In this document: positions 4,701 to 26,800 of the stretch, piece by piece
Layout of the letters: each line of letters begins with the position of its first letter
Position numbering within the stretch: the first letter of the stretch is position 1
Assembly: GCF_002259415.1 (NCBI RefSeq)
Contig: NZ_NPFY01000004.1
Span: forward strand, 62,001 to 126,000
DNA: 64,000 bases
Direction of reading: 5' to 3'
Origin: Rhodococcus sp. 14-2470-1b
GTDB taxonomy: Bacteria > Actinomycetota > Actinomycetes > Mycobacteriales > Mycobacteriaceae
Translations under genes and position numbers: made by a program
The notes under the pieces: model-generated
The model's input: the letters and a program-made list of their open reading frames with translations, nothing else
Told to the model about the DNA's origin: nothing
Database searches by the model: none

Positions 4701-7094
4701 CGGCGTGCGGTCACCGATGTCCGCGACGACCTGACGACCGACGCCGTCGGTGTCGGGGTAGAACGTTCGAAGCACCTCGTGGCGCTCGACCACGTCGTCG
4801 ACTGCCGTGGTCAGCGCATCCTTGTCCAGCTCGCCGGACAACCGGATCGCGACGGGGATGTTGTCGACGGCCGACGTCGGGTCCAGTCGATTGAGAAACC
4901 ACATGCGCTGCTGTGCCATCGACAAGGGGACGACGTCGGGACGTTCGCGTCGACTCAAGGGCACGGCCGTGGACGATGTTCCCGACGCCAGGGCGCTCTC
5001 CACCGAGGCGGCGAGTCCCGCGGCCGTGGGCGTGTCGAAGAAACCGCGGACGTCGACCTTGACCTTCGCGTCCGCGTTGACGCGAGCGACCGCGCGCGTC
5101 GCGCTCAGCGAGTTGCCGCCCAGCGCGAAGAAGTCGTCGTCGACGCCAACCCGGTCGACACCGAGAACGTCCTCGAACACGGCGACGATCGCGCGCTCGA
5201 CGTCGTTTTCGGGGGCGCGGTACTCGGTCGCCAGGTCTGCGGAGCCGGGCACGGGAAGTGCCTTGCGATCGAGCTTTCCGCTGGCGTTGAGCGGAAACTC
5301 GTCGAGCGCGACGAACACGGCCGGCACCATGTAGTCCGGCAACGTGCCACGAATTCCGGCCGCCAACTGCTCGGAGTCCGCCGTACCCGTCGAGGTGACG
5401 ACGTACGCCACCAACCTGTCGTCGACTCCGTTGTCGGACTCGTCGGAGACGACGACCACCACGGCCTGACGAACATCGTCCAGCGTGAGCAGCGCTGCCT
5501 CGATCTCGCCGAGCTCGATACGCAGACCACGAAGTTTGACCTGGAAGTCGGTGCGCCCCAGGTAATCCAACACCCCGTCGTTGTTCCACCGCACGAGGTC
5601 GCCGGTGCGGTACATCCGCTCGCCGGTCGAGGAGTTCACGTTCGCGACGAAGCGGTCGGCCGTCAGATCCGGGCGGCCAAGGTATCCACGCGCCAATTGC
5701 ACGCCCGACAGATAGAGCTCACCCGGCACCCCGGGCGGCGTAGGGTTCAAGCCTTCGTCGAGTACGTGCAGTTCGGTGCGCGGCACCGCCGAACCGATCG
5801 GAACGGACACCGCGTCGGCACTGCCGGTCCGGTGGAAGGTCACGTCCACAGCGGCCTCGGTCGGGCCGTAGAGGTTGTGCAGTTCCGCGTCGAACAGCTC
5901 GTGGAACCGGCGAGCGGAGCTGGCCGGAAGTGCCTCACCGGACGCGAACACCTGCTTCAGTGCCGGCAGGCTGTTCCGCTCGTCCGAACCGTCGAACTGG
6001 CCGAGAAAGACCGTCAACATCGAGGGCACGAAGTGAGTGGTGGTCACCCCGTGCGCACGCATCGTATCGGCGATGTAGGCGGGGTCGCGATGACCGTCCG
6101 GCGCCGCGATCACCAACCTTGCCCCTGCTTGCAGCGGCCAGAAGAACTCCCACACCGATACGTCGAACGTGAACGGTGTCTTCTGCAGAACGACGTCGGC
6201 GTCCGACAACGGGTAGGCCGCCTGTCGCCAATCGAGGTTCGCCACGATTGCGTCGTGCGAGACGGCGACACCTTTGGGTCGTCCCGTGGAGCCGGAGGTG
6301 AAGATGACGTAGGCGGTGTTGCTCGGACGTGCCGGACCGGACGGCCGCTCGTCGTCGGTCAACGGATCGGACGAGTAGTCGTCGAGCGGCTCAGTGTCCA
6401 CCGACAGAACCGGGACACCGTCCGGCAGCGCCACGTGCTCCCCCCACGTGGTGAGCACGAGCAGCGGTTCGGCGATGCCGACGACGTAGGCGATTCTCTC
6501 CGCAGGGTGACCCGGATCGATGGGGACGTAGGCGCCGCCCGCCTCGACGATCGCGTACATCGCCACCAGAAGGTCCACGGAGCGGGAGATGGACAGGCCG
6601 ACTCGGACATCGGGGCCGACCCCCAGTTCGACGAGTCGACGAGCCAAGCGATCGACATGAGAAGAGAACTCGCCGTACGTCAGTGTCCGGCCGTCGAACT
6701 CGAGGGCAACGGCGTCCGGAGTGCGGTCTGCTCGCTCGCGGAAACGAGTGGCCAGGGTGACGTGTTCCCCTGGACCCGTCTCCGAGGCGTCCGCGCCGAG
6801 AACCGAACGCACGTCGCCCACGATCGCGGCGACGACGGACTCCAGACCACCTTCGGCCGACTCGACGGCTCCCGGAGCGAGCGTCGACAGCGCCAGCGGA
6901 ACGAGGGCGTCGGCGCCGAGAACCCCGCCCATGGCAGCGTCCAGGTTCGTCAGCTCGAGTTGGACGGCACCGTAGGACACGACATTGCCGCCGATGTCGA
7001 CGGTCCGCTCAGGCTCGGCCGCGACGACACGGTCGACGAGCCCAGGTAGATCTTCGATCGCCGTCGAGTGCGAACCGGATCCACCAGACACCAT
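1..7094 (-). CDS. Non-ribosomal peptide synthetase, second subunit (partial, 3' end beyond window)
   Basis: This is the second assembly-line protein, read from an ATG at 7094 and still open at base 1, so its C-terminus is missing. A strong ribosome site (AGGAG at 7101-7105, 6 nt before the ATG) supports the start. Visible order: a degenerate A-domain-like N-terminal segment (residues ~10-100), A9 (~110-600), T9 (GGNSL, serine ~662), C10 (HHIAADG), A10, T10 (serine ~1714), C11 (HHIAADG) and the first ~140 residues of A11. A9 has pocket DVWHFSLVDK, the EntF-type serine code. A10 reads DVWSQALVHK, which I cannot assign. The protein starts with A, not C, so it must accept the chain through the C domain at the end of the upstream 10,050-residue protein. 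The gap between the two genes is 128 bp. No E or TE domain is seen before the edge. Confidence 0.95.
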   Translation of the reverse strand, partial: MVSGGSGSHSTAIEDLPGLVDRVVAAEPERTVDIGGNVVSYGAVQLELTNLDAAMGGVLGADALVPLALSTLAPGAVESAEGGLESVVAAIVGDVRSVLGADASETGPGEHVTLATRFRERADRTPDAVALEFDGRTLTYGEFSSHVDRLARRLVELGVGPDVRVGLSISRSVDLLVAMYAIVEAGGAYVPIDPGHPAERIAYVVGIAEPLLVLTTWGEHVALPDGVPVLSVDTEPLDDYSSDPLTDDERPSGPARPSNTAYVIFTSGSTGRPKGVAVSHDAIVANLDWRQAAYPLSDADVVLQKTPFTFDVSVWEFFWPLQAGARLVIAAPDGHRDPAYIADTMRAHGVTTTHFVPSMLTVFLGQFDGSDERNSLPALKQVFASGEALPASSARRFHELFDAELHNLYGPTEAAVDVTFHRTGSADAVSVPIGSAVPRTELHVLDEGLNPTPPGVPGELYLSGVQLARGYLGRPDLTADRFVANVNSSTGERMYRTGDLVRWNNDGVLDYLGRTDFQVKLRGLRIELGEIEAALLTLDDVRQAVVVVVSDESDNGVDDRLVAYVVTSTGTADSEQLAAGIRGTLPDYMVPAVFVALDEFPLNASGKLDRKALPVPGSADLATEYRAPENDVERAIVAVFEDVLGVDRVGVDDDFFALGGNSLSATRAVARVNADAKVKVDVRGFFDTPTAAGLAASVESALASGTSSTAVPLSRRERPDVVPLSMAQQRMWFLNRLDPTSAVDNIPVAIRLSGELDKDALTTAVDDVVERHEVLRTFYPDTDGVGRQVVADIGDRTPELETVVVSEQTVLDRVVELVSAGFDVTSEVPVRLTLLELEPSEHVLVVVAHHIAADGFSMVPLTRDIVSAYVARTAGAAPEWAPLEVQYADYSLWQREVLGSDDDPTSLIAEQERFWIGALADIPVQLDLPSDRRRPAVASGRGANYSAFIDAEMRRRVETLASARGATPFMVVHAALSVLLAKLSGTSDIVVGTPVAGRGEQVLDELVGMFVNTLVLRADVQDRRSFTELLTSVRDTDLDAFAHADVPFERLVEVLDPARSQARHPLFQVLLVFQNVGSTDLRLPGLTVSGVEFDTAVAKTDLQVTVSDRGDGWSLDLTYATDLFDEATVADMARRFLLVLDSAVAAPDVPVASVDIVDESERTRVLHEWNATDHVVSDVSLLDGFHRTVEASPHARALQFGDESLTYAEFASRVARLARYLLRRGVGPEVLVAVAIPRSLDMMVAVYAALEAGGGYVPIDPSQPVERNRYILETSRASVVLTTSEADVAGGVAETVRLDELDLSELSGAPLSGVDRRAPRGDNVAYVVFTSGSTGRPKGVAVSHSAAANQTAWFASEYGIDSQDSVLQKTPFTFDVSVWELFVPLASGARLVVAIPDGHRDPAYLVDVVESEGITALSFVPSMVGAFLGESVGRDLSALRLIQLAGEALPTSTVTALSKVTDASVHNLYGPTEFTVHATARSVSGAEVPADASIPIGTPVWNTAAYVLDGSLHPVPVGVAGELYLSGRQIARGYYGRPDLTADRFLADPFGGGRMYRTGDLVRWNHQGDLEYIGRTDFQVKLRGLRIELGEIDTVARTVPGVADAVAVVRNDRIALYVASPASDRVDAAELRETLGRELPSYMVPAAIVELDEFPVNSAGKLDRGALPEPQVEAAEFRAPSTPVEEIVASVFGEVLGAERVGVDDDFFSLGGNSLIATRVVSRLGAALNTTVPVRLMFETSTVAALATRIESEASGGARVPLAPRPRPDRVPLSLAQQRMWFLNRLDTESAVNNIPVAIRLSGLLDRHALHVAVADVLARHESLRTVYPEVDGVGSQEVVPTRAVIPDLAPIPIDADELPAAIEETVLAGFDVTGRAPFRASLFEVSSTEHVLVFVVHHIAADGYSLGPLTRDVVRAYTARAAGLDNDWEPLAVQYADYTLWQREVLGSEDDPDSIISAQKDYWQSTLTGLPAQLDLPFDRRRPAVASNRGRTHRFEVSGELRASVERIAQEYRATPFMVVHAALSVLLARLSATSDIAIGAPIAGRGDAALDDMIGMFVNTLVLRTDVDAAASFEDLLDTVRRTDLAAFANADIPFERLVEILDPARSAARHPLFQVALFFQNLGRSSLELPNLSVSAVDFDAGIAKFDLQVAVSEPVDGSGWSVEFTYATDLFDPASVEMLERRFLRVLEQVTDEPTVTVGDIDLVAADEAELLVAGWNETGRTVDDAMLLDRFADAARETPNAVAVVYEDESLTYGEFATRVDELARVLVDAGAGPDALVAIAVRRSIDLVVGMYAVLRAGAGFVPIDPDHPVERIDYILGAAQPVCVLVRGRDLFTPPGAVRVIDVDSAPAEFRGGKDVV
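1781..4940 (-). other. NRPS module 10 (C-A-T), substrate unassigned
   Basis: C10 carries HHIAADG (active, LCL type). A10 has FDVSVW, FVPS, QLAGEA, NLYGPTE and TVHAT core segments, giving the pocket D-V-W-S-Q-A-L-V-H plus the usual Lys. This differs from A3 of the first subunit (DVWSLALVH) at one position, so the two modules probably load the same or a similar residue. T10 has GGNSL with the pantetheine serine near residue 1714. No epimerase follows. Confidence 0.85.
4941..7094 (-). other. NRPS N-terminal docking-like segment + A9-T9 (serine)
   Basis: Residues ~10-100 look like a shortened, degenerate A-domain N-terminus and match the tail of the upstream protein (EDLPGLV here, DDLPSLV there). 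A complete A domain follows. Its pocket reads D-V-W-H-F-S-L-V-D, identical to the EntF serine code, so serine is the expected substrate. T9 carries GGNSL (serine ~662). The matching condensation domain is C9 at the end of the first subunit. Confidence 0.85.
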
Positions 7095-7149
7095 CTACTT
7101 CTCCTCTTGATCACGACACGCGTCGAATACCCGGTCGATTATCCCTACT

Positions 7150-7222
7150 CCCACGACAGCAGCCGACGTCCCCCTCTCCCGCCGAGGAATTCCTCGGCGA
7201 GGACGTCAGCTGTCGTCGTGGG
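7150..7222. repeat. Nested inverted repeat between the two NRPS genes
   Basis: An outer pair of 22-nt arms (7150-7171 and 7201-7222) matches at 19 of 22 positions. Inside lies a perfect 20-bp palindrome (7180-7199) centred on an EcoRI-like GAATTC. The structure starts directly after the TGA of the first NRPS gene and ends 55 nt before the ATG of the second. There is no T-run after it on the minus strand, so it is not a classical intrinsic terminator. It could be a termination/attenuation point, an mRNA processing or stabilising hairpin, or a protein-binding site. A GATAAT sequence on the minus strand just downstream could be a weak -10 for the second gene. Confidence 0.8.
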
Positions 7223-8885
7223 TCAGCTGTCGACCACGTCCTCGGCCGCGGAGATCATCGTCGCTACCGCTTGCGCGTACCCCTGAGCACCGAGCGCAGG
7301 GAGGATTCCAGGCACCAACTGCGACAGTGCAACGGTGACCAACGCCTCGGGCTTGAGGGTGGCACCCATAGCCTTGGACACCGACGCGAGCTTGTCCGAC
7401 AACTCCTCGAACGAGATCTCACGCCCCTCGTGCGTCAGAACCGTCGCCGCGGGGCTCGCCGACGCAGCCTCCGACACCAGCGACGGAAGGTCGTCCACTG
7501 TCCGCGGGGCCCGTTTCGGTGTCAGCGCCGCACGCTCCGACTCCGTCAGGATGTCGATCGATCGAAGCGTCACGGACGGATCCTGGGTGACCGTGTCGAG
7601 GATGCGCCTGAACCTGTCCGCGATCTTCTCGACGGTCGATCTCGTGAAGATCGAGGTCGCGTAGTTCAGGAGCGCCCGAATGTCGGTGAGCGCACCGAAC
7701 TCGTCGAACTGCTCGATTGCGGTCAACTGCAGGTCGAACTTGGCCTGATCCTCGTCTGCAGCCAGGGTCGACACCTCGAGCCCTGGCAGCTCGAACGTGC
7801 CGCTGACAGCGTTCTGGAACGTCAGCATCACCTGGAACAGCGGGGAATACGCACTGGATCGCGTTCTACCCATCTGCTCGACGAGCCGCTCGAACGGCAC
7901 GTCGGCGTTGCCGAAGGCCGCCAGGTCGCGGTCACGCGTGTCCGCCAACAACTCGGAGAACGTCGACCCGCCCTGCACGGACGAACGCAACACCAAGGTG
8001 TTGACGAACATGCCGACCAGATCGTCGAGGGCTTCCTCGCCTCGGCCCGCCGTCGGCGTTCCGACAGCGATGTCGTCGGTACCGCTGAGCCTGGACAGCA
8101 GCACAGCCAATGCACTGTGGACAACCATGAAGACGGTCGCGTTGTGCTCGCGAGCTGTCTTCTCGATACGTCCTGCGATATCGGCACCGAGGGTGAACTC
8201 GTACGCCTCACCGATCGTCGACTGCCGTGCCGGTCGCGGATGATCGGTCGGCAAGGGCAACAGGTCCGGAAGCCCCGCCAACTCACGAGTCCAGAACGCG
8301 AGCTGGCCGCCGAGTGCACTGTCCGGGTCGTCCTCACTACCGAGCACCTCGCGCTGCCACAGGCTGAAGTCCGCGTACTGCACCGGCAACGGTGCCCACT
8401 GCGGAGCATCCCCCGCGGCACGAGAGGTGTACGCCAGCATCACGTCGCGGATGAGCGGGCGCATCGAGAACCCGTCTGCCGTGATGTGATGCGCAACGAG
8501 CGCGAACACGTGATCGGTGTCGGACAGGGCGAACAGAGCCGCACGAACCGGCACCTCGCTCGTCACGTCGAAGCCTTCACCGAGGATCGCGCCGACGCGG
8601 CCGAAGACGTCGCTCTCCGTGACGGGGATCGGCGTCAGATCCGGCAGAGCGTCCGACACCGAACCGATCAGCTGGATCGGTCCGTCCTCACTGTCCGGGT
8701 ACCGCGTCCGGAGCACTTCGTGACGTTCGATCACATCGGCCATGGCGGCTGCGAACGCTGCCGTGTTCAGCGCACCGGTGAACCGTATGGCTGCCGGGAT
8801 GTTGTACGCAGCCGACGAGGTGTCCACCTGATTGATGGTCCACATGCGTTGCTGCGCAAGCGACAGCGGAACCGCGTCCGGCCGG
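7223..8885 (-). other. Terminal condensation domain C9 and degenerate A-like docking tail
   Basis: C9 begins with SLAQQRMW near 8840-8885 and contains HHITADG, so it should be catalytically active, joining the chain on T8 to Ser on A9-T9 of the second protein. After the C domain, residues ~9960-10050 (7223-7497) form a short tail that looks like the start of an A domain (for example REISFEEL) but stops before any A-domain core motif. The tail aligns with the N-terminus of the second subunit. Confidence 0.85.
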
Positions 8886-11800
8886 GTGCGCGGAGCGAGC
8901 GGAACCCGCGCCCCGCCACCGACGAGTGGCTGAACCCGTGCGGCGAGCGCCTCCACCGACGACGCTTCGAAGATCGTCCGCACCGGAATGCGGGTATCGA
9001 GGGCTGCGCCCAGTCTGGACACCACCTGCGTCGCGATCAGGGAGTTTCCGCCCAGTGCGAAGAAGTCGTCGTCCAACCCGACACGACCGAGACCGAGCAC
9101 GTCGGACAGCGTTCGTGCGACGACTTCCTCGATGGGATTGGTCGGGGCCCTGAACTCCCCGACGGTCGTCTCCGGCTCCGGCAGTGCTGCGCGATCGAGC
9201 TTGCCGTTGGCGTTCAGCGGCAACGCATCCAGCATCACGTACACCGACGGAACCATGTACGACGGGAGGGTTCGGGTCAGCTCCATCCGAATCGTCTCGG
9301 CATCTGTGCCGTCTTCGCCCCCGGCGAGGTTCGGCACGACGTACGCCACCAGCTGGTCACCGGTGCGTCCGTCGTTGTAGACGGTCACGGCGGTGTCGCG
9401 AACGGAATCCATTCCGCGCAAGGCAGATTCGATTTCACCGAGTTCGATGCGGTATCCGCGAACCTTGACCTGGAAGTCCGCACGCTCGATGTACTCCAGC
9501 TCACCCGAGCGCGTCCACCGCACGATGTCGCCCGTTCGGTACATACGTTCCGAGCTCGCATACGGATTCGCGACGAATCGATCGGCTGTCAGATCGACCC
9601 GACCGTGGTAGCCACGCGCCAGCTGAGATCCCGCCAGGTAGAGCTCACCGCTGACGCCGACGGGAACGGGCTGCAGACGCGCATCGAGAACGTGAACCCG
9701 ACTGTTCCACTCCGGTTTTCCGATCGGAACCGTCGTGGTGTCACCGTCGACGACGCGGTGCGAGGTGATCGACACCGCCGCCTCGGTGGGCCCGTACAGG
9801 TTGTACAGCTCCGCGGAACTCGCCTTCTTCAGCGCCGACGCGGTAGCCGCGGGCAGTGCTTCACCGATCGCCAGGACTCGCCGCAGCGTCGGTGGCAGTG
9901 CACCGTCGGACACCGTGGTCAGCATCGACAACATCGACGGCACCACGTGCAGTGTCGTCACCTCGGAGTCACGAAGCAGACCCAGCAGGTAGTCCGGATC
10001 ACGGTGACCGTCGGCCGAGGCGATCACCACGGATGCACCGACGGTGAGAGCGGACCAGAACTCCCACACCGAGAGATCGAACGTCGCGACGGTCTTGAGC
10101 AGCACCGAATCCGACGAGTTCATCCCGAATTCCGCGTGCTTCCACACCAACTGGTTGACGATGGCGCCGTGAGAAACCGCGACGCCCTTCGGCTTACCGG
10201 TCGACCCGGAGGTGAAGATCACGTACGCCGTGTTGTCAGCGCGAAGCGCGCGGTTGTCACTGCGAAGCGCGCGGTTGTCACTGCGAAGCGCGCGCGCGTC
10301 CGTCGTCCGGCCTGCATCCGCGTCCTTCTCGAGATCCGCCAGATCGACGGAGCCGTCGATGTCGACGTTCTCGCGTGCCGTGGTGATCACGCAGACCGGT
10401 GCCGCCACGGACAGGATGTACTCGGTCCGTTCGATCGGCTGATCTGGATCGAGAGGAACGTACGCACCCCCGGCCTTGACGATCGCGTACATCGCGACCA
10501 CGAGATCGGTGGACCGTCGAATGGCTAGTCCTACCAGGCTTTCGGGTCCGACGCCGCGCTCGACGAGCGACCGCGCGACGCGCTCGACGCGAGCGTCGAA
10601 CTCGGCGTAGGTGATCGAGACACCGTCGAACACGATCGCGGTCGCGTCCGGGGTGCGCCGTACCTGCTCGTCGTACAGATCGACGAGAGTTCGGTCCGCC
10701 CCGATGTCCCGAGCGGTGTCGTTCCATGTCGACACCAGCTCGACGCGTTCGCCGGGCGAGGTGATGTCGATGTCTCCGACCGGAACGTCCGGCCGCGCCA
10801 CGACCTCGTCCAGGACGCGAACGAAGCGTGCGACGACGGCGTCGACCGTCTCTGGCTCGAAGAGATCGGTCGCGTAGGTCATCAGCGCCTCGAAGCCCGC
10901 AGGCGCACCCGAGTCGTCGTACTTGTCCGCCAGGATCAGGTGCAGATCGAACTGCGAGTTACCCGAGTCCGCATCCACCGCCGACACCGTCAGATCACCG
11001 AGCTCGAGGGCCGTCTGCGCCACGTTCTGGAACGAGAAACCGACCTGGAACAGCGGGTGCCGTGCCGTCGACCGCGTGGGGTTGAGGACCTCCACGAGGC
11101 GTTCGAACGGAACATCCGCGTTGGCGAACGCCCGTAGATCCGTCTCGCGTGCCTGCGCCAGCAGGTCCACGAAGTCCCGGCCGCCGTCCACATCGAGTCG
11201 GAACACCAGAGTGTTGACGAACATGCCGACGAGATTGTCCAGCGCCGCTTCTCCGCGTCCTGCGATAGGTGTGCCGACGGCGATGTCGGTCATGCCCGAC
11301 AAACGCGCGAGGAGTACCGAGAACGCCGCGTGCACGGCCATGAACACGGTCGCATTGTGTGCGCGAGCGAGCTCCTGCAACGCGGCGTGCGTGCCGGCCG
11401 GAACCGTGAATTCGACGCGGCCGCCCCGGAAACTCTGGTCCGCAGGACGCGGCTTGTCGATCGGCAGGGTCAGCTGGTCCGGCAGGTCTGCGAGTGCAGT
11501 CTTCCAGTAGTCCAACTGTTGCGCGCCGACCGACGTCGGATCGTCTTCTCGACCGAGAACCTCGCGTTGCCACAGTGCGTAATCGGCGTACTGGACCGGC
11601 AGTGGGGTCCACTGCGGTTCGGTGCCCGTAGTCCTCGCCGCGTACGCGGTCATCAGGTCGGTCGTCATCGGAACCATCGACGAACCGTCGGCGGAGATGT
11701 GGTGAACGACCATCGCCACGACGTACTCGTCGGCACCGACTCGGAACAGGGTGACGCGTACCGGAACCTCGGTCGTGACGTCGAATCGGGTGGCGGCCAG

Positions 11801-14800
11801 CGCCATCACCTTCTCCGTCACCGACGCCGGATCGGCATCCTCGATGTGCAACGAGATACCGGCACGCTCGGACGAGAGCACCCGCTGTACGGCACCACCG
11901 TCCGTTTCCGGGTAGACCGTCCGGAGCGTCTCGTGGCGTGCCACGAGGTCACCGATGGCCGCGGAGAACGCGTCCTCGTCGAGGCGGCCCGACAGGCGAA
12001 GTGCCATCGGGATGTTGTACGCCGTCGACGCACTGTCGAAGCGGTTGAGGAACCACATACGCTGCTGCGCCAAGGACAACGGCACGTTCGCCGGCCGTTC
12101 GCGGGCGACCAGTTCGGTGCGCCCACCTCCGACGGCGGACTCGACGCGTGCAGCCAGGTCGCCGACAGACGAGGCTTCGAACAACAGCCGCACCGGAACC
12201 GTCGCGTCCAAGGCACTACCGAGCCGAGACACCACCTGCGTTGCGATCAGGGAGTTTCCGCCGAGCGAGAAGAAGTCGTCGTCGATACCCACGCGCGCGA
12301 CACCGAGCACGTCCGCGAACACTCCCGCGACGATTTCCTCGATCGGTGTCGACGGCGCGCGGAACGCCGTGGCCACCACCGCGGGCTCCGGCAGAGCACG
12401 CCGATCGAGCTTGCCGTTGACGGTCAACGGAATCTCGTCCATCTGCACGAAGGCGGAGGGAACCATGTACTCGGGAACGGACGTCGCCGTTCCCGCTCGC
12501 ACCGCGTCGAGGTCCACAGAGCCCACCACGTAGGCAACGAGACGCACCGCGCCCGGAGAGTCCTCACGCACCACGACCGCAGCCGCAGTAACCCCGTTCT
12601 GAGCAGACACCGCGGCCTCGATCTCACCGAGCTCGATGCGGAATCCACGCACCTTGACCTGATCGTCCGCACGGCCGAGGTACACCAGCTCGCCGCTGCC
12701 GTCCTCACGCTGCGTCCACCGCGCAACGTCGCCTGTGCGGTAGAGCCGCCCCTCGCCGAACGGATTGGCCACGAACCGCACCGAGGACAGCTCCGCACGT
12801 CCGAGGTAGCCACGAGCCAGCTGCCCACCGGAGACGTACAGCTCGCCCGCCACTCCCACGGGCACCGGGTTCAACCGAGTGTCGAGCACATAGACACCCA
12901 AGCCCGTGATGGGTGCACCGATCACCGACGCCGAGCCGATCGACTCCGCAGTCAACGGGCGGTACGACACGTGGACCGTCGTCTCGGTGATGCCGTACAT
13001 GTTCACCAGTCGCGGCCCCGCAGTGCTGCCGTCGCCGTGGCGATCGAACCATCCAGCGAGACGACGAGGCTCGAGAGCCTCACCACCGAAGATCACGTAC
13101 CGAAGAGACAGCTCACCTGCGTCCGCAGCCTGCACCCGATCGAGTTCGGCAAGTTGGTAGAACGCCGACGGCGTCTGATTCAACACCGTGACACGTTCCG
13201 CGGCGAGAAGCTCGCGGAACGCCTCCGGTGACCGCGAGGTGAAGTAGTCCACCATCACCAACGTGCCGCCGAAAGCCAACGGACCCCACAGCTCCCACAC
13301 CGAGAAGTCGAACGCGTAGGAGTGGAACATCGTCCACACGTCGTCCGGCCCGAAACCGTACGACGCGTCCGTGTTGTCGAGAAGTCGGACGACCGTACGG
13401 TGCGGAATCAGCACACCCTTGGGACGACCGGTCGAACCCGACGTGTAGATGACGTACGCCAAGTGCTCGGGGCGCAGCGGAGCGCGTCGATCGGCGTCGG
13501 ACACCGTGCCCGCACTGTCGCCGCGGTCATGGGTGTGCCCCTCGCCGTCGAGTCGAGTCAAGTCCACCACCGGCAGGGAACCGGCGCGCACATGCGCCAT
13601 CGACTCGCCCTCCAGCACGGCCGAATCGGTGAGGACCGCAACCGGAGTCGCATCGTCGACCATGAACGCGATCCGCTCGGACGGGTACGACGGGTCGATC
13701 GGCAGGTAGCCTGAGCCGGCCTTCAGCACGGCCAACAAGCCCACGATCAGCTCGACCGACCGCGGGAGCGCCACCGCAACGAGCGCGTCCGGACGTGCTC
13801 CGGCCTCGATCAGTGCTCGCGCGACACGATCGGCCCGGCCGTCGAGTTCCGCGTACGTCACCGACTCGTCGCCGAAACGGACGGCAACACCACCCGGATT
13901 AGCGGACGCAGCTGCCTCGAACCGATCGATCAGCGTCGCCTCGCTCACGGACACGTCCGAACCCGACGAACTCCACTGAGTGAGAACACGATCACGCGTC
14001 AGCGAATCGACGATCTCGATGTCACCGACCGCCCGAGACGAATCGGTCACGACACCACCGAGAACCGCGAGGAACTGCTCCCCCATCGACACGACCGTCG
14101 ACTCGTCGAACAGATCGGTCGAGTACGAGACGTAACAGGTGTAACCGCCGCCGGTCACCTCCTCGAAGGTGAACTGCAGATCGAATTTCGCGATCTCCGC
14201 ATCGAACTGCAACGCCTCCGCGGACAGCTTCGGCAGTTCCAGGGCCGTACGACCGAGGTTCTGGAATGCGAGCACCACCTGCACGAGCGGATGACGAGCC
14301 TGCGACCGCTGCGGGTCGAGGATCTCCACCAGTCGCTCGAACGGAACGTCGGCGTTTCCGAACGCCTGCAGATCGACTTCACGTACCTGCGCCAACACCT
14401 CGTCGAACGCAACTGCAGGCGACACCTCGGTGCGCAGAACCAGCGTGTTCACGAACATGCCGATCAGGTCGTCCAAGCGCGCATCACCACGTCCCGCGAC
14501 AGGCGTACCGATCGCCACGTCCTCGGACGCGGACAACCGCGCCATCAGCACGGCCAACGCAGCATGCACCACCATGAACACGGTCGAATCGTGCGCCCGC
14601 GCAAGCTCTTCGAGACTGCGATGCAGAGTCGGCGAGACGGAGAACTGCGCGGTTCGCCCGCGGTAACTCGCCACGTCGGGTCGAGCGTGATCGAACGGTA
14701 GGTCGATCTGATCCGGCAACCCGGACAGCTGCGACGTCCAGTAGTCGATCTGCGCCGACACGAGCGACGACGCGTCGTCCTCGCTGCCCAGAACACTGCG

Positions 14801-17800
14801 TTGCCACAGCGTGTAATCCGCGTACTGCACGTCCAGCGGTTGCCACTGAGGTCGATCACCGGCCGTGCGTGCCGCGTAGGCCGTCATCACGTCGCGCGTC
14901 AGAGGGCCCATCGAGAACCCGTCGGCAGCGATGTGATGCACGACGAACACCAGAACGTGCGACTCGGGGCTCACTTCCAGCAACCGAGTTCGCACGGGGA
15001 CGTCTCGAGTGACGTCGAACCCGACCGAGACGATCGACACGACCTCGTCCACTACCTCCGATTCGGACACAGCGTGCGGCGCCATGTCGAAGGAGACCTG
15101 GGACGGCTCGAGGATCACCTGATGCCCGACACCGTCGACCTCGGGGTAGACCGTCCGCATCGTCTCGTGGCGGGTGAGGACGTCGGTCACCGCGTCGCGC
15201 AGCGCCTCGGTATCCAACTCGCCGGTCAGTCGTATCGCGACGGGGATGTTGTTCACCGCGGAGGCAGAGTCGAAACGATTCAGGAACCACATTCGCTGCT
15301 GAGCGAGCGACAGCGGAATCCGTTCCGGGCGGTCCTGGGCAGCCAGTGCGACACGGCGCTGCGAGCCCGTTCCCTCGGACCCGACGTGTGCTTCCACTGC
15401 ACGTGCGAGAGCGCCGACCGTGGTGGCGTCGAAGAGAACCCGGATCGGGACCGTCGTATCCAAGGCTGCGCCGAGCCTGGCGACGACCTGCGTTGCCACC
15501 AGGGAGTTGCCGCCCAGGGAGAAGAAGTCGTCGTCCAGACCGACGGACTGCACGCCGAGCACGTCGGAGAACACCGTCGCAACGGCCTGTTCGATCGGAG
15601 TCGTCGGTGCACGGAAGTCCGCGGCAGACACCTCCGGATCGGGAAGAGCCTTGCGATCCAGCTTGCCGGAGCTCGTCAGCGGGAGACCGTCCAGGAGCAC
15701 GACAGCCGACGGAACCATGAACGCAGGCAGTCGAGTCTCGGCTTCCGACGAGATGTCCGCGACTGTCGTGCGTGCCGTCGATGGAACCACCCATGCCACC
15801 AAACGATCGCCGCGCACGGCCACTACAGCCTGCGCGACCGCAGGGTCCGCGACGAGGGCGGCCTCGATCTCACCGAGCTCGATTCGTTGTCCGCGCAGCT
15901 TGACCTGGAAATCGGAGCGGCCGACGTACTCGAGTTCGCCGGCTGTGTTCCACCGCACGACATCACCCGTGCGGTACAGCCGCCCGAGTCCGAAGGGGTT
16001 CGCGACGAATCGGTCCGCGGTCAGATCAGGTCGTGAGCTGTAGCCGCGTGCCAGTTGAACGCCACCGAGATACAGCTCTCCCTCGGAGCCGTCGGGAGCC
16101 GGCCGTAGAGCGTTGTCGAGTACGTACACCTGTGTGTTCCACACCGGTCGACCGATCGGGACACCGCGGGTGTCCGCAGCGACGAACTCGTGATACGTCA
16201 CATCGACGGCTGCTTCGGTCGGCCCGTAGAGGTTGACCAGCCGCGCCGACGGAAGCAGCGACACGATCCGTGCTGCAGTCGACTCCGGCAATGCCTCACC
16301 GGACGCGAACACCCACCGAAGGTCGCGAGCGTCGGCGGCACCTGGTTCTGCCGAGAACACGCCGAGCATCGACGGCACGAAGTGCGCCACCGAGACCGAC
16401 TCCTGCGCGAACAGCTGCGCGAGATATGCGGGATCGCGGTGACCGTCCGGCCGAGCGACGACGGTTCTCGCCCCGACACGCATGGGCCAGAACAGCTCCC
16501 ACACCGACACGTCGAACGTCACCGGTGTCTTCTGTACGACGGTGTCGGCGTCGTGCAGGCCGTACTCGGCCTGCATCCACTCGAGCCGGTTGACGATGGC
16601 GCGATGAGTGATCGTGACGCCCTTGGGCCGCCCCGTCGAACCCGAGGTGAACAGCACGTATGCACTGTTGTCCGGCCCGACCGTACGGTCCGACGGCCCG
16701 AGTGCGAGCGCCGGGTACTCGGACAGCGGCAGCGTGTCGATGTGCACCACCGGGGGTGAGCCTGCACCCAGATCCACCGCGTCGCGCTCGGTCGAGAGCA
16801 CGAGCACCGCGTTCGCCACGTCCACGATGTACTCGAGACGATCGACGGGCTGTTCCGGGTCGAGTGGAACGTACGCTCCGCCTGCCTCCACGACGGCGTA
16901 GATGCCGACCATCAGATCGATCGACCGGCGCATGCCGACTGCCACCGCGATCTCCGGCCCGACACCGCGGCCCACCAGGTAGCGCGCCAACCGGTGAACG
17001 CGTTCGGCGAACTCGCGGTAGCTGATGGTGTCGCCCTCGAACGTCAACGCAGGTGCGTCGGGAGTCGATTCTGCGCGGGAGAAGAAGGCGTCCAGCAGCA
17101 GCGCCTCGTCGACGGCATGATCGGTCTCGTTGCGATCGACGACCAGGGCATGACGTTCGTCGTCGCCGAGTAGGTCGAGGTCGCCGACCCTGACACTCGG
17201 ATCGGCTGCCACCGCGGTGAGAATTCGCTCCATCCGACCGATCAGTGCTGCCACGTGACCTTCGTCGAACAGGTCCTCGAAGTACTTCAGTGTCAACCGA
17301 ATTCGGTCGTTCGCGACGATGAGCAACGTCAGCGGGTAGTGCGTGCTGTCGTTCGACTCCACACCGGACACGGCCATGCCGTCGATGTTCGACGCCTGGG
17401 CCGCGAGGCCTTCCTCGTCGACGGGGTAGGACTCGAACACGGTCAGTGTGTCGAAGAGGGCACCGACACCGGCTGCGCGCTGGATGTCCGTAAGCCCGAG
17501 GTAGTGGTGATCGAGCAGATCGGCCTGCTCGGCCTGGAGCCTCGTGAGCGCCGACTCGACGGACTCGGCTGCGTTCAGGCGAACACGGATCGGGAGTGTG
17601 TTGATGAACAGACCGACCATCGACTCGACACCGGGAAGTCCTGCAGGCCTACCGGATACCGTCGCACCGAACACGACGTCGTCCCGGCCGGTCGATGCCG
17701 ACAGCAGGATTCCCCACGCGGCCTGAACCAGCGTGTTCACGGTGACTCCGAGGCGCGCGCCCAAGTGCGTCAGCGACGAGGACAACTCTGCCGACAGGAC

Positions 17801-20800
17801 TGTCTCCACAGCACCCGACCGCGACGTGATCTCACGTCCCGCGGCACCGGGAGCGAGAATCGTCGGCTCCGGAGCGTCCTCGAACGCTCGGGCCCACACA
17901 CCTTCCGACCGTGCTCGATCCTGACGTGCGATCCAGGACAGGAACGTTCGGTAGGACGACACACGCGGCAGACCGGACGCGTCTCCGTGTGCGGCGTACA
18001 GAACCAACAGGTCCCGCATCAGCAACGGCATGGACCATCCGTCGAGCAGGACGTGGTGGTTCGCGAACAGCAGCCGACTGTCGTCCTCGGCGATCTTCAC
18101 CAGGGTGAAGCGCACGAGAGGTGCCGTGGCGGTGTCGAATCGAGCTTCCTGCTCCCCCGTACGCAGCTCCTCGTACGCACGCTCACGATCGCCCGACGGG
18201 AGTCCGGACAAGTCGTGCTCGAACCACGGAAGTTCGACGTCGTCCTGAACCACCTGAACGGTGGAGCCGTCGGCGACCGTCACGAACGCGGAACGCAGGT
18301 TGTCGTACCGGTCGACGAGCGACGCCGCGGCGGTACGAAGACGACCGGCATCGACGTCGCCGGTCAGGCGCAGAACCATCTGCATCGTGTACACGTCGAC
18401 GGACGACTCCGCGAGCAATGCGTGGAACAACAGACCCGATTGCAGCGGTGCAAGCGACCAGATGTCACGCGTCGACGGGTAGCGCTGTTCGACGACGTCG
18501 ATGTCGCGCTGACCGATACGGACCAGCGGGACGTCCGACGGTGTCAGACCGCCGGCGGTACCGTCCGCGACGTGAGCGGCCAGAGCGGTCAGCGCGCCCA
18601 CCCAGAGGTCGGCCAGTTCCCGAACGTCGTCTGCATCGATGGCACCGATGGGGAATGCGAACGTCGCGGCGAGCGCCGAATCGTCGCCGGCTCCGCGGAC
18701 GATCGCATTGATGTCGACGGTCTTGTTCGCCGCCATGTCGGCGTCACCGATGATAGCCAGATCGTCGAAATCGGTTGCGGGCAACCACCCTTCGATTCCT
18801 TCCGGAACCTCACCGGTGCTACCACGACCGAGGTAGTTGAAACTGATCTGACCGGTCGACAGCGAGCCGAGCTCGTTCGCGGTGTCCTCGTTGAGGTGCC
18901 GCAACAACCCGTATCCCATGCCCTTGTCCGGAATGCCGAGCAGTTGCTCCTTGATCAGCTTGACCGCGGCACCGATGGAGGAGCCACCGCCGAGCGCGTC
19001 GGAGATGTCGACTCCGGTGAGATCGAGACGGACCGGGTACATGCTCGTGAACCATCCGACGGTGCGCGAGAGATCGGCACCTGGAATCAGTTCTTCTTCG
19101 CGGCCATGCCCTTCGAGTTGAACCAACGTCGCAGGCGCATCGACTCCGCGACGCGCACGGAACTCTTGCACGGCAAGAGCAAGACCGGCCAGCAGACCGT
19201 CCGACACTCCACCGTGGAAGGCATCGGGCACGGTAGTCAGCAGGGCGCGAGTCACGCTCGGCGACAACTCGATCGCGCAACGTTCCACCGTCGACGTCAC
19301 GTCACGGGCGGGGTCGAACGGGCGCGTACCGAGGACCGGGTCCGGAGTTTCCGCGACGCTCCGCCACAGGTCCATCTCCGCGAGACGGCGAGGCGAACGC
19401 GCGTCGTCCGCGAGGGCGTGCGCCCAGCGACGCTCCGACGTGCCGACCTCGGGCAGAGCGGGGACTGCACCCGCCGCTGTCTGCGCCCAGGCGGAGACGA
19501 AGTCCGGCACCAGGATTCGCCAGGACACGCCGTCCACGACGAGGTGGTGTGCCACGACGACGAGACGGCCGCTCCTCGACGAACCGAAATCGACCCACAC
19601 GAAACGGAGCATGTCACCTGCGAACGGATCGAGGTGCGACATGGAATCGTCTACGGCCGCTGCGGTACGAGCAAGAACCTCGTCGATATCGAGCTCGGCG
19701 CCCATGTCGATGCGGTCGACGAGTCGATCGACCGAGACCGAACCAGGTGCGGAAGTCTCGAGACCCCACCCCTGAGACCCGTTCACCAGGCGCGCTCGGA
19801 GTCCGTCGTGTCGGTCCACCACGGCGAGGATGGTCGCCACGATTCCCTGACGGTCTATACCGACGGGCAACTCGAGGGTCACCGACTGCACGAACCGATC
19901 GAACGATCCACCCCGATCGGTCATCGAACGAGCGAACGGAAGCAGTGGTGCCCAGCCGATTCCGCCGCCGTCGAGCTCACCGAGAACGACTTCGTCGACG
20001 AGGTTCTCGGCAGCGGCGGCCACCGACGCGAGACCGGCGACGGTCTTCTGCTCGAACACGTCACGCGGGGTGATCACGACACCCCTGGCTCGAGAGCGTG
20101 CAACGAGCTGGATCGACACGATGCTGTCACCGCCGAGCGCGAAGAACGAGTCGTCGACGCCGACGGTGTCGAGACCGAGGACGTCCGCGAAGACTTCGCT
20201 GAGTACTCGCTCGACATCGGTTTCGGCACCGCGGAACTCGGCCGAACTCTCGAACGTGTGCTCCGGCAGCGCTCTACGGTCGAGCTTGCCCGACGGTCCG
20301 ACCGGCAGTTCGTCGAGAACGAGAACCGACACCGGAACCATGTACTCAGGCAGCGTGGTCGCCGCCGACGCGAGTACCGCGTCGACGTCCACCGACGCGC
20401 CTGCTGTGGGCACTACGTAGGCGACAAGCTGATCGCGCACGACCAGTACGACGGCCTGAGCCACCGAATCGGCACTCAGAAGGGCGGACTCGATTTCTCC
20501 CAGCTCGATACGCAGGCCACGAAGCTTGACCTGGAAGTCCGAGCGCCCGATGTATTCGAGCTCGCCGTTCGACGTCCAGCGAACCAGGTCGCCGGTGCGG
20601 TAGAGGCGGCCACCCTGCCCGTCTGCCGGATCGGCGACGAACCGGTCGGCCGTCAGGTCCGGACGCGAATGGTATCCACGAGCGAGCTGCACACCGGCCA
20701 GGTAGAGCTCGCCCACCATCCCGAGCGGGACCCGGCGCAGACGATCGTCGAGCACATGGACGCGGGTGTTGTACACCGGACGTCCGATGGGCACCGAGGC

Positions 20801-23800
20801 GACGTCCGTACCGACGAATTCGTGGTAGGTCACGTCGACGGCCGCCTCGGTGGGGCCGTACAGGTTGACCAACCGAGCGGCCGGCAGAACCGACCCGATC
20901 GCCCGCGCAGTGGCCGGCGGCAGCGCCTCACCGGACGCGAAGATCCAGCGCAGCGCGTCGGCCCCGTTCGCCGACGGTTCCGCTGCGAAGACGGCAAGCA
21001 TCGACGGCACGAAGTGTGCGACCGACACCTGCTCGCCGCGCATCAGCTCCGCCAGATAGACCGGGTCACGATGCCCGTCCGGCTTCGCGATCACCAGACG
21101 CGCGCCGATCTGCAGCGGCCAGAACAGTTCCCACACCGACACGTCGAACGTCACCGGTGTCTTCTGCACCACCACGTCGTCGCCCCGGAGGCCGTACTGT
21201 TCCTGCATCCAGACGAGGCGGTTGACGATGGCGGCGTGAGTGATCGTCACGCCCTTCGGCCGACCCGTCGAGCCCGAGGTGAACAGCACGTACGCGGCAT
21301 TCGACGGACGAAGAACACCGATGCGATCCGCGTCGGTGAGCAGCGCATCCGAGTACTCGCCGAGCCCCAGACGATCGATCTCGAGCACCACCGCGTCGTC
21401 CGCGCGGAAACCCTCCCGCGACGTGGTCAGGACCGTGGCCGCCCCGGAAGTGTCCAGGATGTACTCGACACGATCGGCCGGCTGATCCGGATCGACCGGC
21501 ACGTAGCCCGCACCCGTTTCCAGAACGGCGTAGATGCCGACCATCAGATCGAGCGACCGCTTGAAGGCAACCGCGACAAGCGATTCCGCGCCGACACCAC
21601 GTTCGACGAGGGCGCGGGCGAGTCGATTGACCCGGCGATGGAACTCGGCGTACGTGAGCGATTCGTCCTCGAACGTCAGCGCCACCGCATCGGGCGTCCT
21701 CGCCACCTGGGCGTCGAACATCGAAACGAGCGTCGCCGACTCGTCGACAGCGTGAGCGGTGTCGTTCGCCGCCGCGATCAGTGCGCGTTCGCTCGGGTCG
21801 GACAGGTCGACATCGCCGATAGCGGCCGTTCGATCCGCGGCGAAAGCCTCGAAAATGCGTTCCAACCGGCCCATCATGGTGGCCACGGCCGCGCCGTCCA
21901 GAACATCGGTCAGATACTTCAGCTTCAGATGCACCTGCGAGTCCACCGCGATGAGCAGCGTGAGCGGGTAATGGGTCGCGTCCTCCAGCTCCACCCCGGA
22001 CACCGACATACCGTCGATGTTCTTCGCTTGTTCGGCGAGACCCGCTTCGTCGACGGGGTACGACTCGAAGACCGTCAGGGTGTCGAACAACGCTCCCAGA
22101 TTCGCGGCTCGCTGAATCTCGTTGAGCCCCAAATAATGATGATCGAGCAGATCGGCTTGTTCACCCTGCAGACGCACCAGTACGGATTCGACGGATTCGT
22201 GGCCGTCGAACCGAACACGGACGGGGAGGGTGTTGATGAACAGACCAACCATGGATTCGACGCCCGCCAGGCCCGCCGGGCGTCCGGACACCGTGGCGCC
22301 GAACAGCACGTCGTTGCTTCCGACGGACCGGCCGAGGAGCAGACCCCACGCTGCCTGGACCATCGTGTTCAGCGTGACACCGAGCTGCGCTCCGACCGAG
22401 TGAAGCGCCGACGACAACGCCGGGCTGAGATCCAGAATCACCTCACCGATATCGGTGGACGCCTGTCCTGCGCGCTCGGCCGACGTGAGCATCGTCGGTT
22501 CCTCGACACCCGCCAAGGCCTCGATCCACTTGTCGATCGACACGCGTGCGTCCTGCTCCGCGACCCAGCCGAGGAACGACCGGTAGGACCGCACACGAGG
22601 CAGCAACGACACGTCACCTTCAAGCGCGTACAGAGCCAGAAGATCTCGCATCAGCAGCGGCGTCGACCAACCGTCGAGAAGAAGGTGGTGACTGGAGACG
22701 AGGAACCGTACGTCGGTGGCCGACACGGTGACGAACGTGAACCGCATGAGCGGAGCCGACGTCAGGTCGAACGGTTCGATCTTGTCGGCTGCTCGAAGCT
22801 CGTCGAAGGCCGCCTCGCGCTCCGATTCCGGCAGCGACGTCAGATCGACGTCCTTCCACGGCACGTCGACTCGGTCCAGCACCAACTGGACCGACGTACC
22901 GTCGACGTTCTGGACGAATGCCGTTCGCAAGTTCTCGTATCGGTCGAGCAGTGCCTGTGCGGCGCCGTGTAGACGTTCGCGCTCGACGTTTCCGCTCAGC
23001 CGCAGTACGACCCGCATCGTGTAGACGTCGACCGACCCAGCCTGGGCGTCGGTCGACTGGGCGATCAGTGCATGGAACAGCAAGCCCGACTGCAGCGGTG
23101 CGAGCGACCAGATATCTGCCGCCGCGGGATACGACGCTTCCCAACGATCGATGTCGGCCTGCGACACGGACACCAGAGGAACATCCGACGGAGTCAGTCC
23201 CCCTGCGTTGTCTCCTGCCACATGTTCGGTCAGCGCGGTCAGCGCACGATCCCACAGCTCGACCAATTCGGTGACCTGGGTGCGTGTGAGCATCCCTGTC
23301 GCGAACGTGAAACTTGCTGTCAGACGTGGTCCGTCGACGGTGTCGACGACGGCAGAGTTGATGTCCACCGCGGCATTGGCCGGCATGTCCGGGTCACCCG
23401 GTGCGCCGACGTCTGCCAGCACCGCGGACGGGAGCCAAGCACCGCCGGTCAGTTCCGCCGAAATGCCCTCGGTGGACACGCGTCCCAGGTAGTTGAAGCT
23501 GACCTGCGGAGTGTTCGCGCTGGACTGCAGAACCTTGGCGGTCTCACCGTTCAAGTAGCGGAGCAGACCGTAGCCCATTCCCTTGTCCGGCACAGCGAGG
23601 AGTTGTTCCTTCACGGCCTTGACCGCATCGCCGACCGCTGTGCCACCGGACAGAGCGTCGTCGACGTCGATCCCGTTCAAATCGAGTCGGACCGGGAACG
23701 CACTGGTGAACCATCCGACGGTTCGAGAGAGGTCCGCACCCGGAACGATGTCCTCCTCGCGACCGTGGCCCTCGAGCTTGACCAGGCTTTCGGAGGTCAC

Positions 23801-26800
23801 AGCGCCGGTTCGGGATCGCCATTCGCCGAGAGCCAACGCCAGGGTGGCCAGAAGTCCGTCGTTGACGCCACCGTTGAACGCGCTCGGTACTCGGGTGAGC
23901 ACGGCGTCTGTGACCGCCGCGGACAGTTCGATGTCGACACGGTCGGTCGACGACAGCGTGTCGATTCGCGCGTCGAACGCGCGAGAACCGATCCGCGGAT
24001 CAGCACCTGCCAGAACGCTTGTCCACCAGCCAATTTCAGCTTCGCGCTCGCTGTCGTGAGCGGCATCGACCAAACCGTGGGCCCACCGACGCATCGACGT
24101 ACCGACGGCAGGAAGAGTGATCGGCTGCTCGGCCGCTCCCTGCCCCCATGCCACGGCGAGGTCGGGCAGCAGGATTCGCCACGACACGCCGTCGACCACG
24201 AAGTGGTGTGCGACCAGGAGGAGGATGCCGGCCCGCGCAGGCCCGTCACCGACGAAGTCGAACCAGACGACCTCCAACATCCGACCACGCTCGGGATCGA
24301 GGCGGTCCTTGGCCTCGTCGAGCGCGGACTCGGCACGCACGCGGACCGCTGCGTCGTCGAGCCCGGAGTCGAGCTCGACGCGAACCAGCAGATCGTCGAC
24401 GTCGACGGTGCCGTGATCACGGACGTAGAAGGTCCACTCGCCGCCTTCGGCACGCTCGACGACGGACCGAAGCACGTCGTGGTGATCGACGACCGCGCCG
24501 ATGGTCCTGCTCAGCAGCCCGTGGTCGATGCCGGTGGGCAGCGTGACCGCCACCGACTGCGCGAACCTGGCGAATCCACCCGGACCTTCGAGGATGGATT
24601 TCATGATCGGCGTCAGTGCGAGCGGACCCAGTCCGCCGCCGGGCAGCTCTTCCACCACCGGGACGTCCGTGGTCTCGCTCACCACGGTGGCGACCTCGGC
24701 AAGCGCGGCAACGGACTTGCGCTCGAACACGTCCCGAGGGGTGAAGGAGATACCCCGTGCACGCGCCCGAGAGACCAGTTGAATAGACACGATGCTGTCG
24801 CCGCCGAGAGCGAAGAACGACTCGTCGACGCTCACACGCTCCATGTTCAGAACATCGGCGAAGACTTCGGCGATGATCGTCTCTATTTCTCCGGTCGCAC
24901 CGCGGAATTCCTGTTCGGTGAACACCGGTTCCGGTAGCGCCGCACGGTCCAGCTTGCCCACCGGGGTCAACGGAACACTGTCGAGAACGATGATCGACGC
25001 CGGGACCATGTGCGCAGGAAGAGTTTTCGCCACGAACTCGGTGAGATCCTCGACGTCGACTGTCGCCCCTCGCGCCGGGAGCACGTAGGCAACCAGACCG
25101 GTTGCACCGCTGGGAAGCTCACGTCCGAGAGTGGCCGCGAAGGACACACTGTCGTGTTCGGTCAGTGCTGCGTCGACCTCACCGAGTTCGACACGGAATC
25201 CGCGGACCTTGATCTGGAAGTCCGATCGCCCGACGAATTCGATGGTCACCGCGTTCGGGTCGACGATCACGGCATCCGATCCGAAGGTCCATCGGACGAC
25301 GTCGCCCGTGCGGTACATCCGAGCACCGGGAGCGCCGTACGGATTGGCGACGAAGCGCGACGACGTCAGATCCTCGCGCTCGTGGTAGCCCCGCGCGAGA
25401 GCGCCGCCCGCAAGATAGAGCTCACCTGCGGCCCCGACGGGAACCGGGTGAAGACGCGCGTCGAGAACGAGCGCCGACATACCGTGAATCGGTCGGCCCA
25501 CGGTAATGGGCATGCCCGGACGAAGCTCGGCGAACGTGGAGATGATCGTGGTCTCGGTCGGACCGTACCCGTTGAAGTACGTGCGGCCCGGCGCCCACCG
25601 AGCGAGGAGATCGGGAGTGGTGACGTCGCCGCCGACGGAGACGACCCGGAGACTGTCGATCCCCGCCGCGTCCACTGTTCCGAGCACGGCGGGCGTGATG
25701 ATCGTATGGGTCACCTGCTCGGTGACGAGCAACTCGGCGAGGTCCTCACCGCCGATGATGGTCGACGGCACGACGACGAGGGTCGCGCCTTCGGAGAACG
25801 CGGCCATCCATTCGAGAACCGACGGATCGAAGCTCGGCGAACAGATGTGCAGGAACTTGGATGTTCGGTCCAGGTGATACAGGTCGGTCGCCGCGTCGAG
25901 CACGCCGCCCAGACCACTGTGCGTGACGACGACGCCCTTGGGGAGTCCCGTCGAGCCGGACGTGTAGATCACGTACGCGGCGTGATCGATGGACAGCGGC
26001 GACGTGCGATCCGCGTCGGTGATCGGAGCGTCGGACTGCCGAGAGACCGCCGCTGCGAAATCCGCGCCGTCGGTCACGAGCCACTCGATCGCCGAAGGCA
26101 GTTCCTCGACGTGGTCGCCCGACGTCAGGCCGAACAGAGCGCCCGAGTCGCCGACCATGTGCTCGATGCGTCCGGACGGGTAGTTGGGATCGACCGGCAG
26201 GTGCGCAGCTCCTGACTTGGCCACCGCCCAGACCGCGGCGACCATGTCGTAGGAGCGCGGAAAGGCGAGCGCAACGATGCGATCAGGTCCGGCACCACGT
26301 TCGATCAACGCACGCGCGACACGCGTGGACGTCTCGTCGAGTTCTCGATAGGTGATGGAGCGGCCGTCCGCGCGCACCGCCACACCGTCGGGATCGATGT
26401 CGACACCGCGCTGGAAGATCTCCGGCAAAGTACCGCCGTGAGTCACCTCGTCGCCGTGGACGTGAGTCAGCCACTGGTACTCGTCGTTCTCGAGAATGGT
26501 GAGGTCACCGACCGGACGATCGGGTCGTGCGACGACACCTTCGAGAATTCGAACGAACCGGCGAGCGAACACCTCGACCGTCGAGCGGTCGAACAGAGCT
26601 GTCGCATAAGTGAATTCAGCGGAGATTCCGGTCTGCGCACCCGATTGATCGGTGTGCTCGGACAACAGCAACGACAGATCGAACTTGGCGACGTCGATGT
26701 CGAAATCGACCGCACTGACCTTGAGCCCCGGCAGTTCGAAGCTGGTCTGCGGCAGGTTCTGGAACGACAACGCGACCTGGAAAAGCGGGTGGCGCGCCGT

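Follow-up and report, generated by a model that had tools for sequence, protein, structure and literature searches.

A conserved pair of adenylation-derived terminal domains as a probable docking pair at a condensation/adenylation break in Rhodococcus peptide synthetases

In a 64,000-nucleotide stretch of the Rhodococcus sp. 14-2470-1b genome (the window; C33:62001-126000 of a 5.9 Mb genome), two neighboring nonribosomal peptide synthetase (NRPS) genes, N1 and N2, meet at a junction, J1, where N1 ends and N2 begins with related segments. We refer to these segments as the tail and the head, and to the family that they form as X. The C-terminal order of N1 is T-C-tail, and N2 opens with 11 residues, the 94-residue head segment and A-T. 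Because N1 stops after its condensation (C) domain and N2 opens with an adenylation (A) domain, the J1 break lies within a module, separating C from A, and neither protein alone contains the complete module. We infer that the tail and the head bind each other as a cognate docking pair that rejoins this split and that was formed by duplication of an N-terminal piece of an A domain, a reading that we consider probable. The pair is conserved and selected, and it probably represents a new class of NRPS docking domain at the C/A junction.

The tail and the head showed a clear likeness. Their local alignment has a score of 110 (z = 13.6), which was reached by none of 1000 shuffles, and 9 of 13 residues are identical between ALVTVALSQLVPG of the tail and ALVPLALSTLAPG of the head. 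The original prediction, made from the letters of the window, had pointed to this identity and to both segments, and it was borne out: the tail is the last 92 residues of the first protein and the head is residues 12-105 of the second. Against 23 A-domain N-termini from the five synthetases of the cluster, the tail scored at best 73 (z 9.6) and the head reached at best z 1.3; therefore, the tail and the head are closer to each other than to A domains. A Pfam search with stretches containing only the tail or only the head gave no match at E <= 1.

The origin of X in an A domain appears in the wider alignments. X is homologous to A domains over about its first 57-60 positions, with a match to LgrA at E 1.6e-09, and it ceases to match A domains of solved structure from about position 57-60 of the 93-position profile onward. 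PF00501 matched 4 of 27 X members, the best at 7e-06. X retains a degenerate form (ISFEEL / VSYGAV) of what we take to be the first A-domain motif, and ends at about residue 90 with no catalytic motif past the first. Among the 27 X members aligned (heads, tails and copies in cis), we found neither TSGSTG, the ATP-binding motif of A domains, nor any later core motif. X thus shares sequence homology with the A-domain N-terminal subdomain while lacking the complete core, and it forms a clade of its own. As judged by alignment, X is built from about the first 60 A-domain residues plus a new end. AlphaFold2 predicts this new end to be helical, with a helix in place of the third strand of the A domain and the overall element order alpha-beta-beta-alpha-alpha-alpha; this predicted fold also weakly backs the origin from an A-domain N-terminus. 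The earlier description of X as an A-domain start that stops before any core motif therefore holds for the homology, and has to be amended for the degenerate first motif, which is still present.

Both domains are widely retained together. X was found in 33 of 61 genomes searched (own included), and all 33 are among the 37 genomes of the window's genus, of which 30 have the J1 pair, three have X in cis (G005, G015, G034) and four have none. At all 30 J1 loci the two domains lie side by side, with the tail ending 1-11 residues before the stop codon, and every one of these 30 head-bearing genomes is also tail-bearing. The window's head and tail are 95% and 97% identical, respectively, to those of G004, and among named records the nearest is Rhodococcoides fascians A44A, with a head identity of 95%. 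Scanning the named genomes, which overlap with the genus set so that the counts are not independent, returned 51 loci exclusively from Rhodococcus, Rhodococcoides or Prescottella. The tail and the head are both present at 47 of them, including L143, whose head frame is broken just past X; the remaining four (L138, L147, L149, L151) are lone additional heads whose genomes each contain a pair as well. Matches were found in 8 of 248 genomes of an order-level sample and in 3 of 396 genomes of a phylum-level sample, the latter all already found; the first pass scored 20 and 13 candidates per genome, respectively, so that absences in these samples are soft. One of the eight order-level matches, G272 (E 8.5e-10), is an ordinary A domain with a core motif, and no X was called there. 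Weak head matches in 132-residue frames (G024, G026, G035) were taken as chance because the match lies opposite a longer open reading frame (ORF) in the two of these three loci that were read, L083 and L084.

In a second genus, g24 (possibly Nocardia; genomes of 5-10 Mb), X is present in 65 of 98 genomes. By coordinates, these comprise 52 adjacent pairs (within ~0.6 kb), nine unlinked pairs and four single matches, and all 22 of the adjacent pairs that were read as sequence have a C-terminal tail and an N-terminal head. In the nine unlinked genomes, the tail and the head are on different contigs (seven) or more than 1 megabase apart (two). Even so placed, the tail is C-terminal in all nine, ending 11-12 residues before the stop codon, and the head is N-terminal, ahead of an A domain. 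The tail-head pairing persists after linkage is lost. In the three of these nine genomes whose surroundings were examined, the region upstream of the moved head gene showed no ORF bearing A or C motifs. The moved gene is probably N2 itself: its first A domain shares 62-66% identity with the corresponding domain of linked g24 N2, as against 58-60% with the first and ~51% with the second A domain of the window's N2. After X, many g24 tails (L161-L210) carry a short conserved terminal peptide, for example DDSEGQL, DSEGNS or SEGNH. Taken as a whole, the complementary pairs at subunit ends that characterize docking classes occur at 30 of 30 J1 loci, at 47 of 51 named loci and in the nine unlinked pairs, with the heads of the N5 type described below as the exception. 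The proposal of a distinct docking pair thus stands as regards the pairing, from which we infer the docking.

The tail and the head are under purifying selection, including where they are unlinked. For the window and 46 named loci (L143 left out), the median ratio of nonsynonymous to synonymous divergence (dN/dS) is 0.38 for the tail, 0.33 for the head, 0.32 for the flanking C domain and 0.27 for the A domain, based on the 241 of 1081 pairs with synonymous divergence in range. The corresponding values in the unlinked clade are 0.17, 0.16, 0.21 and 0.19 (34-35 of 36 pairs). We also built a tree of 76 rows, including 7 A-domain rows, and 92 columns, which gives weak resolution. X is set apart from the A domains (100/97); 28 of 29 tail rows cluster together (97/84), as do 36 of 38 head rows (99/99), and both groups contain Rhodococcus and g24 rows. 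By this tree, the tail/head divergence predates the divergence of the two genera. These results bear on the idea that the X segments are functionless relics of a gene-breaking event that duplicated the start of an A domain. Both segments do derive from an A-domain N-terminus and are located at the break; however, selection on them is near that on the flanking catalytic domains, the tail/head split is older than the two genera, and the tail ends close to the stop codon at every J1 locus. We find the relic explanation hardly credible.

In the mechanism that we favor, the two related X domains would associate, probably into a pseudo-symmetric heterodimer, and thereby bring the C domain of N1 beside A-T of N2. 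As for its history, a duplicate of an A-domain N-terminal piece would have entered the C-A linker of a still unsplit synthetase, giving C-X-A; X would then have been duplicated and the chain cut between the copies. Unsplit chains are present in three genomes (L070, L071, L072; 11.4 thousand residues per frame, of which 6633 were read); in these chains, two C-A linkers contain X, each in a single copy instead of two. In the tree, the in-cis copy Ib branches first, and the in-cis copy Ia joins a second tail/head pair and a lone head, all of G247 (90/73). Within the limits of its rooting and column number, the tree agrees with duplication of an in-cis X followed by a cut, a course of events that may have taken place twice. 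We propose more tentatively that a duplicated, worn A-domain N-terminus became a pseudo-adenylation pair, that is, mutually recognizing homologous domains that reconnect C and A of the cut module and keep the partners matched after their genes move apart. Such pairs may have arisen more than once, because the second pair of G247 falls outside both of the main clades, that of the tails and that of the heads. The original prediction had placed the duplication at the split. Its A-domain N-terminal origin agrees with our alignments, and the timing is only partly supported because the tail/head divergence predates the genera and X also exists singly in unsplit chains.

Several observations weigh against the docking reading. 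First, modeling gave no confident interface, an outcome that the original prediction had named as speaking against it. AlphaFold2 folded the tail and the head, read as one chain, into well-formed domains with a predicted local distance difference test score (pLDDT) of 75 and a predicted template modeling score (pTM) of 0.42, and the C-tail-head-A module with a pLDDT of 62 and a pTM of 0.38, each from an alignment of 10 rows, too shallow to speak for or against an interface; the second model was also too poor for judging the C-A geometry. Only in-frame paired rows were used; deeper unpaired alignments, in which MAFFT aligned tails to heads, were dropped. Second, over the window and the same 46 named loci, the identity correlation between the tail and the head (0.70) is lower than those between the tail and C (0.79) and between the head and A (0.85); therefore, there is no excess tail-head co-divergence of the mirror-tree kind. 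Third, the nine unlinked cases are probably a single relocation event because their relocated A domains are mutually 84-94% identical, and in the two genomes read, the old N2 place holds an intact ORF with two A domains without a core motif (Table 1), which may be decaying or an adaptor. Fourth, X is not only a trans device because it sits in cis in the unsplit chains, where it has a role, or is tolerated, without trans docking. Lastly, nine genomes of the genus carry an N5-type head with no tail next to it, and the other breaks of the same cluster use something else, namely degenerate A ends and Arg-rich starts.

Some of these observations would suit a structural spacer or cap, in which the tail masks the part of the terminal C domain against which A would sit, the head shields the start of A, and the partners meet via C-A contacts or co-translation. 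The single in-cis X between C and A in the three unsplit synthetases, the heads that lack a neighboring tail at the N4/N5 junction and the modeled tail-head interface of low confidence are in line with such a role. In addition, at four loci (L125, L129, L130, L137) the TAG stop codon of the tail is followed, at once and in frame, by the ATG of the head, an arrangement that would allow translational coupling or read-through and favors co-translation there. The distance from the tail stop to the head X is 36 bases in these four loci and 89-206 in the other 44 of 48, and a ribosome-binding-like site precedes the head start codon at 45 of 48. Nevertheless, the tail and the head are both kept when they are more than 1 megabase apart or on different contigs, where co-translation cannot help because the genes are unlinked, and all 30 genomes of the window's genus with a J1 head also have the tail. 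We therefore regard the spacer or cap as unlikely.

The N5-type heads raise a different possibility. The nine genomes concerned have one tail and two heads each, which suggests alternative partners, and the N1 tail might dock alternatively to N2 and N5, a single upstream synthetase thereby supplying both of the downstream enzymes. The N5 head matches the N2 head (z 16.1), the tail matches both heads (z 11.8 for that of N5), and the first A domain of N5 has its best match within the cluster in the first A domain of N2. On the other hand, the later modules of N5 do not correspond to those of N2, and N4, with its bare C end beside N5, may be the partner of N5; we consider shared docking of this kind very unlikely. 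The mismatch of the later modules also does not support N5 as a module-by-module copy of N2. The gene upstream of an N5-type head has a bare C end in six genomes (own, L073-L076, L079) and a T end in two (L077, L080), the end being assigned in 8 of 9 junctions (not L078), with ~1.3 kb between the genes in L073, L074, L075 and L077 left out of the reading. Junctions lacking one of the segments, which had been named at the outset as a possible refutation of the docking pair, thus do exist at N5, whereas the pair is complete at all 30 J1 loci.

The other breaks of the cluster have features of their own. In both N2 and N5, the last C domain is followed by a C-terminal degenerate A domain of ~275-305 residues (Table 1). 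The one at the end of N2 is matched in 23 of 41 genomes (own included) at E <= 1e-15, these matches being A-like, so that some may be ordinary A domains; its best ordinary match is the first A domain of N3. The N-termini of N3 and N4 (L005) carry Arg-rich extensions of ~30 residues before the first A domain, without an X head. The degenerate A ends are perhaps a second kind of C/A connector, with the Arg-rich extensions as their possible partners.

Like the betahD docking domains, which we take to be those also called TubC-type, X is found at the subunit ends of multi-protein NRPSs. In a review of docking domains, the N-terminal betahD partner is described as a small domain with a central beta-hairpin and the order alpha-beta-beta-alpha-alpha (PMC9113145). 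The predicted element order of X is similar, a likeness by description only, and X is related to A domains. Among the matches listed in a predicted-fold comparison of X there was no betahD chain, an absence that is uninformative. According to the section on them in that review, the structurally known betahD pairs belong to PCP/C or PCP/Cy junctions and involve a short linear motif (SLiM) of <15 residues, and none of the other borders listed there includes an A domain (PMC9113145). In contrast, the C-terminal partner of X is not a SLiM but a ~92-residue domain that follows C, both partners are homologous, and the junction is C/A. COM domains, which act at E/C junctions through a short donor helix and a hand partly within the C domain (PMC9113145), order NRPS subunits as we propose for X; X differs from them in having ~92 residues on each side of a C/A border. 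In PAX docking, both termini contribute, as in X, to what is described as a three-helix bundle of helices only, characterized at a PCP/C junction and predicted at others (PMC9113145), whereas X is located at a C/A junction, has a predicted beta-hairpin and is derived from an A domain. The four-helix-bundle docking of trans-AT polyketide synthases (PKSs) also occurs at intramodular breaks of split modules (PMC9113145), but it concerns PKS domains and ~25 residues at each end. In the portion of the review accessible to us, NRPS docking classes are placed mostly at junctions into condensation or cyclization domains and none is given at a C/A border (PMC9113145), and in the accessible main text of a Rhodococcus genome survey the words 'docking' and 'split' are absent (PMC5550956). 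Our literature search, with preprints and most subscription papers outside its reach, found no docking class made of A-domain pieces.

The cluster comprises five consecutive NRPS genes, all on the C33 minus strand: N1 (10050 residues), N2 (4651), N3 (1939, with a thioesterase motif), N4 (5306) and N5 (4642). The start of N1 is uncertain, its stop-to-stop frame being 10077 residues compared with 10050 from the first TTG; its stop codon is at 7223-7225. The full A domain expected after the head is indeed present (Table 1). Between N1 and N2, the 136-nt stretch 7095-7230 folds with -68.6 kcal/mol (z -6.8), and none of 200 shuffles was equally stable. ORFs resembling ribosomal proteins S3 and L2, recognized by eye, are found at C33:6711-9061, ~10 kb past the N5 end of the NRPS cluster.

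Table 1 Features of the N1/N2 junction and related loci. Positions without a prefix are those of the window.
Feature	Position	Strand	Basis or remark
N1, NRPS of 10050 residues from first TTG	7223..37375	minus	8 A domains by motif; end = C-X(tail)
N1 last condensation domain	7523..8875	minus	PF00668, E 5.1e-97
X-tail, 92 residues, up to N1 stop codon	7226..7501	minus	sequence reading and alignment
N1/N2 intergenic hairpin	7150..7222	minus	folding of 136-nt stretch
GAGGAG, ribosome-binding-like, before N2 ATG	7101..7106	minus	sequence
X-head, N2 residues 12-105, directly N-terminal to full A domain	6780..7061	minus	sequence reading and alignment
N2 first A domain	5679..6743	minus	PF00501, N2 residues 118-472, E 6.9e-92
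N2, NRPS of 4651 residues	3..7094	minus	first 2364 residues inside window; end at C33:55139, outside
Degenerate A domain at N2 end	C33:55142-55963 (L006)		
Degenerate A domain at N5 end	C33:18819 on (L004)		
Degenerate two-A ORF after tail gene, 1031 residues	L213:10986-14078		intact frame
Degenerate two-A ORF after tail gene, 847 residues	L215:847-3387		intact frame

Docking domains determine the sequence in which the proteins of a peptide assembly line act, and for rewiring such lines they are prime tools. One site already used by engineers to recombine NRPSs is the C-A linker (PMC10212144). If X docks as we propose, this natural C/A pair would give connectors at that same linker site, and the idea is testable with domains of ~90 residues. 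It would also show that a docking pair can arise from a duplicated piece of the enzyme itself.

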